Assembly: GCF_021233435.1 (NCBI RefSeq)
Contig: NZ_CP089468.1
Coordinates: 1,302,001 to 1,366,000 of the forward strand
Length of the DNA stretch: 64,000 nt
Reading direction: 5' to 3'
Origin: Halobacterium noricense
GTDB taxonomy: Archaea; Halobacteriota; Halobacteria; Halobacteriales; Halobacteriaceae
Every line of letters begins with the position of its first letter. Position 1 is the stretch's first letter. Made by a program: the position numbers and the translations under genes. Shown here one piece after another: positions 1,322-19,388 of this stretch. Under the pieces are notes generated by a model that did no database searches, was not told the origin of the DNA, and worked only from the letters and a program-made list of their open reading frames with translations.

Positions 1322-2730
1322 CTATGCCGAGTCCACGGAGGCAACTTGCGGGTTCGTGTGCTCCTCGTTGGGACGGGGAGAGCGTGATAACTCCAGCCAA
1401 TCGTGACTATCCCACTTGAGGCACACAGGCCGTGCCATCGGCCGTGCTACCGTTTCGTGCCGCCTCAGGAACGTCTCGCTCGCGGCGAGGTCCGCGGGCC
1501 TTCGAAGCCGCAGGTACACGTCAGCGTGTCCTGATGTCGCGTCGTGTCCTCGGTCGAACTGCAGTTCGGACACGTCTGCGAGGTCCACGCTTCCGTGCGG
1601 ACTTCGACGGTGATGCCGAACTCCTCGGCAGTATACACGAGACGGTCGATGAACCGCCGGAACGCCCAGAAGTTGTGCAGCTTGGCGTTCGTCCGAACCG
1701 ACCAGTGCGTCTCGGGTACGTCGGTTAAGTCGCCGACGTACACCGTCGAAACACCCTCGTCGTGCAGCCGTTCGACCAGATCCCGACAGAGTGCGTCCAT
1801 CGCGTGGTCGCGCCGCCGCGTTTGACGACGGTACAGTGAGTCGATTCGCTTCGAACTGTACCGGCCATCCTCGAGCTTCGACTGGAGTTCGGCAATTCGT
1901 TGCGTGGTCTCGCGGAACCGTTCGAACAGGTCGCGTCCTTCGTAGAGGTGCTGCTCGCCGGTCGTGGTCGTACAGGCGACGATATTGTTCGCGCCGATGT
2001 CCAGAGCGGCGGATTCGTCCGCCAGTGGTTGTGCCAGTCGAGAATTGTCGATAGTGACTGGCTGAAAGGCCCTGAATGTCTCGCTCACATCGTCGTAATA
2101 CAGTTCCAACCGGCCCTGCTTGTCGTACTCTTTCCAGTTGGGTTCGCCGCGAACCTCAAGACGGAGACGCTCGCGGTATCCAAGACCGTACTCCTCTTTC
2201 AGGTCTTGCCCGACAAGAATCTCGAGACGAGAGTGTTCGCCCCATTCAACCGAGTACGACGTGTTGCGGATATACGTCCGCAGTTCGCGGCCCTCGTCTT
2301 GGTTCCCCCAGAAGCCGGGCTTGCCATTTGCTTCGCCCTTCTCTCGGAGTGCGAAGAACGACTGCCACGCTTCGCGGTTCTTGCGCTCGATCTGTTGAAC
2401 GGTCGAAGTGCCCGACGACGAACAGTACGAGCGGTTGAAGCGCGTGAAAAACGAATACGGGCTGACGTGGCGCGGGATGTTGATCCACGCCGCCGACGAC
2501 TTGGAGACTCCGGCCGGGGAGTAACCGGTGGTTCGCGTCGTCGAGTGACGCGATTCACGCCCGTCCCCAGAACGCGGAGCGTTCTGGTGTGCGAACGAGA
2601 CGCAACGCGTCTCGTCACCGCCGTAAACGGCAGGACTCTCTCGCTGTTTTAGGTAGCCTGGCAACCAAGACGAGAACCCAAGCTGGGACAGCCAGTAGTC
2701 GTCTTCTTTCGTTGACCAAAAGAACGCCAC
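1322..2730 (-). pseudogene. tnpB: tnpB, frameshifted RNA-guided nuclease
   Basis: The protein is a haloarchaeal TnpB of the IS1341 type. Visible are the RuvC-I Asp (ALDIGANN), the RuvC-II Glu region (VYVGDLTDV) and the first zinc-finger knuckle (CPNC) followed by CTCGFEG. Immediately after FEG the frame changes. The frame from 2730 stops at 1465 with an unrelated tail, while the expected C-terminus, beginning [10 protein letters not shown] and ending QVASVDSA, continues in another frame to 1322. One base appears to be missing around 1493-1500. The lost segment holds the RuvC-III Asp, so the nuclease should be inactive. A palindromic 57-bp insertion sits in frame near residues 37-56. Confidence 0.82.
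2564..2620 (-). repeat. Double-hairpin element, copy in tnpB
   Basis: The core at 2565-2615 contains two perfect 9-bp hairpins. Read on the minus strand, the first arm is ACGAGACGC with loop GTT; after a 7-base spacer the second arm is CCAGAACGC with loop TCC. It encodes the residues [10 protein letters not shown] in frame. Comparison with the similar sequence at 35942-35981, which lacks it, gives an insertion of 57 bp (2564-2620), exactly 19 codons. A second copy lies in menD. Confidence 0.75.
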
Positions 2731-17573: not shown

Positions 17574-19388
17574 TTAGTCCTTGAGGTCCTGTGTGACGGC
17601 GGCAGCGAGGCGTTCGCGCTCGCGGTGGCTGGCCTCGGCGTCCGTCCGCACTTCGACGACCTGCGTGCCCGGCGAGCCGACGGACTCCCGGTAGGCGTCC
17701 CGGAAGCCGTCGAGGGTCTCCACGCGCGCGAACTCGAAGCCGTAGACGTCGCCGGTCGGCTCGAAGTCGAGGCCGTGGGGCGTCTTGAACTGGCTCGTGA
17801 ACGGCGGGTCGTACGCCTCGATGGGGAGCATGTGGAAGATGCCGCCGCCGTCGTTGTTCACGAGCACGATAGTCGCGTCCACGCCCCCAGAAATCGAAGA
17901 TTTCTGGCGTGCGAACGAGACGCCTCGCGTCTCGTTAACCTCGCAGCGGTCGAGCGCGAGCAAGCCGTTCGCGTCGTGGTAGTACGCGAGGTCGCCCGTA
18001 ATCACCACCAGCGGGTCGTCGGTGGCGCTGCCGGCGCCGAGTCCCGTCGACGTGATGCCGTCGATGCCGGAAGCACCCCGATTCCCGAGCACGGTCAGCT
18101 CGGCACTCCGCGGTCGTGCGAACCGGTCGAGGTCGCGGACGGGCATGCTGTTCGAGACCATCACAGTAGCGGGGTCTGGCGCGTCGTCGGCCGCCGCTGC
18201 GACCACGTCGCCCTCCAGCAGCGCCTCGCGCTCGACGGCGTCGACGGCGTTCCAGTAGTCGGCTTCGAGTTCCGCGATGCGGTCGGCCCAGTCGCCCGGG
18301 GAGCGGTCCACGCGCTCGGCGAGCGCGCGTGCCGTCTCGGTCGGGTCCGCGACGACGAGGTCAGACGCGGTGAACGTGGCTTCGCGCCACCTGCCTGCGC
18401 GGTCGACGAGGAACTGGCGGGCGTCGCTGTCACGGAGGTAGTTGCGGAGCGGCTTCGACGTCGGCGACGCACCGAAGCGGAGGACGACGTCCGGCTCGGG
18501 GAGGGGTGCGTCGTCCGCGGCGAGGAAGCCGTCGTAGCCGCCGACGACGCGAGAGTCGGAGACGTGGTCGCCGAATCGAATCCCCGAGAGTGGGTCCGCG
18601 AACACCGGGAAGCCGGTCGCGTCCGCCAGCGCTGCAGCGGCCTCTGCAGTCAAGCCGTGCGCGTCGTCCGGCCCCGCGACGACGAGCCCGCGGTCCGCGG
18701 ATTCGACGGCCCTCGCGAGCGCGTCGAGCGTCGCGTCGTCGGGTGTCGTGGGATTCTGATGGACGTCGGCGAACGGCCCGTCGCGGCCCTCGACGGCCAG
18801 CGGGTGCTCGTCGGCGAAGCCCTCGGGTACGTCGCCCGGCACTTCCACGGGTTCGAGGGGTTTCTCGAACGGGACGTTGAGGTGGACGGGTCCGGGGTTC
18901 GCGCCGGTCGTCTCGCCGACGGCCCGACATATCGAGGTCCGCAGCGAGCGGAGTTTGCGGTCGTCGGCCTCGGGTTCCGGGAGTTCGCGGAAGTGGCGGA
19001 CGGCGTCCCCGTAGAGCTTGGTCTGGTCGACGGTCTGGTTCGCGCCCGAGTCCCGGAGCTCCGGCGGGCGGTCGGCCGTGAGGACGAGTAGCGGCACGCG
19101 CGCCTGATTGGCCTCCATCACGGCGGGGTGGAAGTTCGCAGTCGCGGTGCCGGACGTCGAGACGACGGGCGTGGGCTTGCCGGTTCGCTTCCCGCGGCCG
19201 AGTGCGAAGAACGCCGCCGACCGCTCGTCGAGGTGCGAGAACACCTGGACGTCGTCGTGTTCGGCGAGCGCGACGGTCAGCGGCGTCGACCGGCTGCCCG
19301 GACAGACGCAGGCGGCGTCCACGCCCGCGCGGACGAGTTCCTCGACGACGGCCCGAGCCCACAGCGTGTTGCGGTTCGGCGCGCTCAT
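17574..19388 (-). CDS. menD: SEPHCHC synthase MenD, with palindromic insertion
   Basis: MenD is a thiamine-diphosphate enzyme that joins isochorismate and 2-oxoglutarate. At 604 residues it shows CPGSRSTPLTVAL and DERSAAFFALG at the N-terminus, VSTSGTATANFHPAV, and the ThDP-Mg motif from GDLAYYHD to VNNDGGG near the C-terminus. Within that motif about 20 residues around ETRGVSFARQ are extra. Without them the GD-to-NN spacing is about 26 residues, as in other ThDP enzymes; with them it is about 46. The extra stretch is encoded by a double-hairpin element. The reading frame is otherwise intact. It overlaps menF by four bases (ATGA). Confidence 0.94.
   Translation of the reverse strand: MSAPNRNTLWARAVVEELVRAGVDAACVCPGSRSTPLTVALAEHDDVQVFSHLDERSAAFFALGRGKRTGKPTPVVSTSGTATANFHPAVMEANQARVPLLVLTADRPPELRDSGANQTVDQTKLYGDAVRHFRELPEPEADDRKLRSLRTSICRAVGETTGANPGPVHLNVPFEKPLEPVEVPGDVPEGFADEHPLAVEGRDGPFADVHQNPTTPDDATLDALARAVESADRGLVVAGPDDAHGLTAEAAAALADATGFPVFADPLSGIRFGDHVSDSRVVGGYDGFLAADDAPLPEPDVVLRFGASPTSKPLRNYLRDSDARQFLVDRAGRWREATFTASDLVVADPTETARALAERVDRSPGDWADRIAELEADYWNAVDAVEREALLEGDVVAAAADDAPDPATVMVSNSMPVRDLDRFARPRSAELTVLGNRGASGIDGITSTGLGAGSATDDPLVVITGDLAYYHDANGLLALDRCEVNETRGVSFARQKSSISGGVDATIVLVNNDGGGIFHMLPIEAYDPPFTSQFKTPHGLDFEPTGDVYGFEFARVETLDGFRDAYRESVGSPGTQVVEVRTDAEASHRERERLAAAVTQDLKD
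17885..17935 (-). repeat. Double-hairpin element, copy in menD
   Basis: Read on the minus strand, hairpin one is ACGAGACGC-GAG-GCGTCTCGT, then a 7-base spacer, then hairpin two CCAGAAATC-TTC-GATTTCTGG. It aligns without gaps over 51 bases with 2565-2615 (43 identities by my count). The stem-two differences are paired: C to A and G to T on one arm are matched on the other. It adds about 20 codons in frame to menD. Confidence 0.78.

Follow-up and report, generated by a model that had tools for sequence, protein, structure and literature searches.

The 51-bp double-hairpin feature of menD, the vitamin K2 gene, is probably the central part of a miniature haloarchaeal palindromic unit that is 57 bp long and mobile, a grade that we give to the explanation as a whole, including the steps of movement proposed below. 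The window (the whole stretch of 64,000 nucleotides analysed here) carries two copies, and both are, as their sequences indicate, units of one dispersed family of the form GTCC-hairpin-7 nt-hairpin-YAAC, called type I in the following (Table 1).

The two 51-base stretches, 2565-2615 and 17885-17935, align without gaps, and a 21-mer common to both occurs twice in the window and in 0 of 100 shuffles of it. The folding z-scores of the copies are -5.4 and -4.3 as RNA, and -6.3 and -5.1 as DNA. As reported in the preliminary description, each copy has two perfect 9-bp stems with a 7-base spacer, closed by 3-nt loops, and both loops differ between the copies. The compensatory stem changes reported there are found in the hairpin nearest the CGTC end, where two positions differ and both are compensated (ACGC/GCGT vs AATC/GATT). 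The menD copy is read in frame, as had been stated, and gives VNETRGVSFARQKSSISGG. The other copy had been placed within tnpB, and this assignment had to be given up: a 421-aa frame is open there by chance, and the similarity to TnpB begins at about residue 100. An in-frame location in two unrelated genes, as first claimed, is therefore true for one gene in the window (menD), though for many genes elsewhere. The part of the 421-aa frame that holds the second unit matches other loci mainly via the unit itself, and the flanks of this unit match the palindromic end of IS200/IS605-type elements. Judged by these flanks, the 2563-2619 unit lies in the palindromic end of a decayed element of this type; ungapped empty sites for it are present in loci L076 and L035. 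Between the tnpB remnant and the unit, an open frame on the + strand (window 2400-2524) looks coding.

Table 1. Features of the two type I units and their surroundings in the window (^, junction of flank and unit; stems are given as the two arms)
Feature	Position	Strand	Details
Type I unit in menD	17883..17939	+	element strand +, menD read on -; covariance model match 17882-17940, 76.6 bits
Hairpin 1 of menD unit	17887..17907	+	9-bp stem CCAGAAATC/GATTTCTGG, loop GAA
Linker of menD unit	17908..17914	+	7 bases, CGTGCGA
Hairpin 2 of menD unit	17915..17935	+	9-bp stem ACGAGACGC/GCGTCTCGT, loop CTC
menD, 604 aa	17574..19388	-	19 extra residues VNETRGVSFARQKSSISGG; Pfam TPP_enzyme_N + TPP_enzyme_M_2
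Type I unit 2	2563..2619	+	intergenic, decayed IS200/IS605-type palindromic end, CACGCCC^GCCGTAAACGGC; model match 2562-2620, 82.1 bits
Hairpin 1 of second unit	2567..2587	+	CCAGAACGC/GCGTTCTGG, loop GGA
Hairpin 2 of second unit	2595..2615	+	ACGAGACGC/GCGTCTCGT, loop AAC
TnpB (IS1341-type) remnant without N-terminal part	1465..2430	-	Pfam OrfB_IS605 + Cas12f1-like_TNB; ends before the unit at 2563

Comparison with related genes indicates that the menD copy is an exact insertion of 57 bp, or 19 codons. The unit is absent from 12 of 12 congeneric menD genes; their proteins are 579-591 aa long, compared with 604 aa here, and the three closest genes are exactly 57 bp shorter. Ungapped empty sites are found in loci L143, L145, L147, and L150, with the joins CGTCCAC^CTCGCAG in L145 and CGTCCAC^GTCGCAG in L143, between which the window genome carries GCCCCCAG...CGTTAAC. 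In an alignment to the MenD structure 2x7j the insert appears as a single clean gap of 19 residues, just before the strand leading into VNNDGGG. From the congener lengths, the empty-site alignments, and the 2x7j gap, the inserted unit measures 57 bp, so that the 51 first given fell short by a few bases. The extra residues sit in the ThDP-binding region, between the helix ..LLALDRC and the strand ATIVLVNND (a peptide that would mark the translated unit is VNETRGVSFARQK). In the AlphaFold model of MenD (mean pLDDT of 57) residues ~484-502 lie in a region without predicted helix or strand.

The family is widespread. In a pattern scan of 84,980 species genomes nearly all the matches listed are in Halobacteria. 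The type I covariance model, built from 110 distinct copies (with a short calibration, so that its E-values are rough), detects the unit in 136 of 145 haloarchaeal genomes, which represent 55 of 58 genera, with up to 35 matches per genome. The window genome itself has eight type I copies. A sister type of 54-60 bp differs by the linker (TGGGCTG vs TGTGCGA of type I), the sequence of hairpin 2, and stems of 9-11 bp. It is found in 130 of the 145 genomes; its model has matches in 12 of 13 genomes of this genus, type I copies being among those that it detects. In loci L104, L205/L212, and L156 copies are arranged in tandem. A phylum-wide draw yielded, outside the order, weak matches in one genus alone (g80, family f17, same phylum; genomes G173, G182, and G189, best E 2e-7), which could represent a distant relative. 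No phage record matched the unit, the sole match in a viral contig was without the right end, and no model in Rfam matched it. No archaeal or haloarchaeal description of such a unit was found in the open-licence literature; the family is apparently undescribed in Archaea, while the behaviour itself is already described in bacteria such as Rickettsia. The peptide ETRxVSFAxQ, which the first reading had associated with other haloarchaeal proteins, is also found in TnpB proteins (L044, L075).

Further arrangements were also observed. In the window genome, L206-L210 and L217 (e.g. G000:C1:1377288-1377409) hold a third dispersed multi-hairpin repeat, GTCCTCAG..CTGATGGGTGGTTCGAGAGGACGAAGTCCTCTCGTCATCCCGAGAGACGCCGTCGGCGTCTCTCGG, in six similar copies, apparently intergenic. 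The window genome also has four copies of a larger conserved repeat (L004-L007; L192, L193, L195, L196); here an outer stem, GGCGGACGGCGA...TCGCCGTCCGC, and another hairpin surround the unit, resembling a four-way junction. At L053:3289-3423, and in similar inverted neighbours in G104, two opposite units ~20-75 bp apart form a large palindrome of roughly SMR-A-like size, and at L001:1-1400 a copy of the unit and the end of a decayed IS adjoin an apparent CRISPR array.

The boundaries of the unit are well defined. The left edge is sharp, the information content falling from 1.9 bits at the last C to 0.25 one base outside, and 117 of 166 copies match joined flanks in other retrieved loci, nearly always ungapped and with no target duplication. 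With one copy taken per flank class, the base before the unit is C in 31 of 31 classes and the base after it G in 30 of 31, followed mostly by C or T and then by C; GCC or GTC comes after most copies. The target read from these flanks is Y^GYC, i.e. the position after GRC on the other strand. In loci L214 and L216 the unit is preceded by T, and since T is present also in their empty sites, the first base of the "CGTC tag" is derived from the target. Most copies are located in the ends of IS200/IS605-TnpB elements, and the same places exist without the unit. The large flank classes are GATACAGC^GCC upstream of tnpB, CACGCCC^GCCGTGAACGGCGGG in a palindrome upstream of tnpA, GAATCAAC^GCCTGTGG near the tnpB 3' end, and CCCGCGCCTGAAGAC^GCGGG in another palindrome. 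This distribution shows a preference of the unit for the palindromic ends of these elements.

The hairpins show strong covariation. For type I, pairing is retained in 98.3% of cells, with 147 double changes compared with 38.7 in shuffles, and slid controls lower the pairing to 30-41%; for the sister type, 92.5% are paired and 59 double changes compare with 20 in shuffles. In the pattern scan that gathered the copies, the beginning of hairpin 2 and the outer part of hairpin 1 were prescribed, and the covarying inner pairs were free. The preliminary description took covariation as a sign that the fold, not the peptide, is under selection. The covariation is indeed strong, but the statement goes too far, as intragenic units keep the one orientation that gives a hydrophilic peptide. 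Covariation might moreover be the product of a mutational process, i.e. palindrome correction or hairpin inversion by template switching, rather than of selection on the fold, and this reading stands not far below an even chance. In the orthologous unit of L202 and L229, the loop of hairpin 1 is ACA in one and TGT, its reverse complement, in the other, with the rest almost unchanged, so hairpin inversion or palindrome correction may account for some of the covariation with no selection involved; in the loops, moreover, triplets are common together with their reverse complements (GAA 23, TTC 19). Such a process is a rival for the meaning of the covariation alone, and leaves the exact insertion, the dispersal, and the target preference unexplained.

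The unit would move as folded single-stranded DNA, and a Y1 (HUH) transposase of the IS200/IS605 kind, supplied in trans, would cut and join it after GRC. Of the movers that we can name, we favour a Y1 enzyme that works in trans on single-stranded DNA, yet we hold to it tentatively, with slightly more doubt than trust. On the strand opposite the CGTC strand the order is GRC^GTTR-hairpin-linker-hairpin-GGAC^, so that hairpin 1 and the flanking linker could play the part of the right end of an IS200/IS605 element, with its guide, hairpin, and cleavage site. A short guide that precedes the foot of the hairpin and a cleavage site that follows it also characterise the ends of IS200/IS605 and REP elements (PMC6006769); this match in geometry, and the pairing of the tag with the linker in the predicted folds, are the reasons for naming a Y1 transposase. 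Y1_Tnp is present in 100 of 145 genomes. Several observations speak against this mode of movement: the number of Y1_Tnp genes correlates only weakly with the copy number (rho 0.34, with RAYT subclasses pooled), five genomes with at least 10 copies have no Y1_Tnp, and the retrieved DNA contained no element with the ends of the unit and a transposase gene. The flanks of the host IS elements, from which their targets were read, also show no GRC, and conservation at the target of the unit is limited to the adjoining base and GYC, whereas typical IS200/IS605 elements have a left target of 4-5 nt. A broader proposal, which we would sooner doubt than accept, is that of an old, class-wide haloarchaeal family of self-contained 54-60 bp double-hairpin units with their own non-RAYT mobiliser, inserting repeatedly after Asp/Gly codons and adding loops of 18-20 residues to core enzymes (fibrillarin, DNA ligase, MenD); its protein-coding palindromes would be unrelated by descent to the bacterial ones.

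The unit could also be a deletion derivative of an IS200/IS605 transposon (a PATE of the "terminal only" kind), in which the left and right ends of one IS are fused and moved by its TnpA. The hairpins at both ends, the lack of target duplication, and the strong tie to IS200/IS605-TnpB loci agree with such an origin, and the PATEs of Haloquadratum include a 52-bp terminal-only deletion form (PMC3119063). We nevertheless regard it as unlikely: no parent IS or other transposase-carrying element with the ends of the unit was found in the retrieved loci, where 184 of 184 matches to the left hairpin continue into a short linker and a second hairpin, and the IS ends that contain the units belong to several different families and are not formed by the units themselves. 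PATEs were compared by their description.

Returning to the mobile unit, its copies in host genes were recognised by codon-position G+C composition and open frames, with Pfam/NCBIfam names for 20 proteins. In the window genome, in-frame units are found in menD and in the genes of an M20 amidohydrolase (L194), a DUF7561 protein (L200), a Hel308-like helicase (L213), glucosyl-3-phosphoglycerate synthase GpgS (L214; a peptide that would mark the translated unit, LRKTTASSSAAHQNAK), fibrillarin (L216), and the NAD-dependent DNA ligase LigA (L320). A flavin oxidoreductase (L205, L212) has two in-frame units, as does the L211 protein, with one after each occurrence of ELG. In congeners the units are present in NAD kinase, MinD/ParA, lipoate ligase (LplA), DUF2797, DUF255, DUF5807, and a methyltransferase. 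With a composite protein query, congeners match continuously across the sites that are interrupted in the window genome, and ungapped empty sites were found at the DNA level for DUF7561, the thioesterase, the two-unit gene, GpgS, FlpA, NAD kinase, and TnpB. The insertion is mostly exactly between codons, after Asp or Gly, and the units are mostly read in a hydrophilic frame, giving peptides such as VRKTTESSSAARQNAARSED. A unit in a gene would survive if its length is a multiple of three and its frame hydrophilic, and the host protein would thereby gain a loop of 18-20 residues. The MenD, GpgS, FlpA, LigA, and NAD kinase copies, for which the protein-level comparison is best, carry the argument for tolerated in-frame insertion.

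The orientation in genes is nearly uniform. All 24 intragenic copies in this genus are alike, as are all 20 sister-type sites after similar flanks are merged (p = 2e-6); in a further set from other genera, mostly tnpB but including another fibrillarin (L399), 11 of 12 have that orientation. This suggests either some importance of the peptide as well or a strand bias of the insertion process, and the frameshifting copies, which have the same orientation, hint at the bias rather than at selection for a hydrophilic frame. Among sister-type units, those in genes more often have a length divisible by three (14/20 vs 18/44, one-sided p = 0.03). When all copies are pooled there is no such enrichment (p = 0.66), as 57 bp, the length of type I, is divisible by three in any case.

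The frame is preserved where a unit sits in a clearly conserved gene, and units of 55-58 bp that shift it lie in genes that look broken: a thioesterase-like gene that the window genome shares with G008 (58 bp), a pseudogene resembling enoyl-CoA hydratase, and a gene for TnpB. These observations, the single orientation, and the mostly hydrophilic frame make it very improbable that the unit is spliced or processed out of the RNA and the peptide never made. The stable hairpins predicted in the transcript would agree with such processing, but no bulge-helix-bulge motif was seen by eye. As separate observations, the histidine kinase genes of L309 and L215 have a single hairpin-1-like unit at the NAVEHG box, with the AVEHG motif repeated on either side of the insert. 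With a congener that is more distant (G008 or G002) the window genome shares two insertions (L202/L229 vs L329; L200/L231 vs L330) that are absent without a scar from the closest congener, G011, which may be due to exact loss, recombination, or repeated insertion.

Even less probable is that the unit is a functional RNA module, part of the TnpB omega-RNA or of the IS ends, with stray copies such as that of menD as debris. One large class does lie in the 3' part of tnpB and overlaps the omega RNA region (L008, L027, L032, and others), but the same 3' ends exist without the unit in L064, L079, L111, and L171, which makes it dispensable there, and many copies are far from any tnpB, in housekeeping genes; the idea was dropped, as tnpB ends exist with and without the unit. 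That the similarity stems from conserved, homologous segments in the two proteins, MenD and TnpB, is practically out of the question, as all the other MenD proteins examined are without the segment and the second copy is outside the tnpB coding region.

In general, in-frame palindromic inserts are known from Rickettsia and other bacteria and have been treated as a bacterial oddity, and here they extend across a whole archaeal class. In the haloarchaeal case the empty sites of close relatives are exact, the target is defined, and the units are read in one orientation; with genetically tractable haloarchaea and congeners that differ by single insertions, it can be tested by what means units this small are moved and whether their insertion is a source of new protein loops. 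For annotators, the peptides ETRxVSFAxQ and RKTTxSSSAAHQN in haloarchaeal proteins denote inserts, and hairpins in IS200/IS605 ends need not belong to the IS.

Among the known systems, the palindromic elements of Rickettsia, with which the first description compared the feature, are similar in that palindromic units are read in frame in unrelated genes, many of which have congeneric counterparts with an empty site in the case described here; this likeness is borne out by the dispersed copies, the clean empty sites, and the in-frame copies reported here. By their description (Ogata et al., as cited in PMC10969869), RPE-1 and others are ~150 bp, so that the haloarchaeal unit is shorter. With IS200/IS605 derivatives of the PATE type the unit shares the lack of target duplication, a short one-sided target (GRC^ on the non-element strand), and hairpins near both ends. 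SMR-A of Haloquadratum walsbyi is a transposase-free repeat of ~110 bp with inverted terminal repeats, located within near-terminal palindromes of IS605-type/PATE elements (PMC3119063). The unit, too, is a transposase-free haloarchaeal repeat that inserts in IS605-type near-terminal palindromes without target duplication, but it is 54-60 bp long, is present in nearly all haloarchaea, and occurs also in frame in host genes; it was compared with SMR-A (HqIRS42/43/55) and PATEs by their descriptions. The mobile unit of REPINs (Bertels and Rainey 2011, PMC3116915) likewise consists of two tagged hairpins in inverted arrangement, with compensatory stem changes and tandem copies. REPINs, as far as PMC3733652 describes them, have the tag GTAG and are extragenic with a linked RAYT gene, whereas many copies of the present unit are intragenic and no linked transposase was found with it in the retrieved loci.

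The closest known kind are the CGTC-tagged REPs of bacteria, including Rickettsia RPE-4 and RPE-6, from a survey that names bacteria only (Di Nocera et al. 2013, PMC3733652); their in-frame intragenic copies encode 20-30 residues, and in some species they insert inside palindromes (PMC3733652). The unit has the same unpaired CGTC end (TGTC in L214 and L216; CGTC, TGTC, or CCTC in the REPs) and 9-bp stems (8-9 bp in the REPs; 9-11 bp in the sister type). Its right end read backwards is CGTTR, so that it is an inverted pair, where the REPs are mostly tag-outside dimers; intragenic copies and no linked transposase found in the retrieved loci are further points of likeness. The stems of the REPs start with A-T at positions 1 and 2, whereas hairpin 1 of the unit starts with C-G C-G or T-A C-G and hairpin 2 with A-T C-G or C-G G-C. 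The loops are of 3 nt in most copies instead of 4-5 nt, a linker TGTGCGA or TGGGCTG is present in place of an unpaired CCA-like tail, the pair is fixed at a spacing of 7 nt, and the host is archaeal. The unit works like a CGTC-tagged REP, but it is not filed as a member of that class since the A-T stem start, the loop length, and the CCA tail do not fit.
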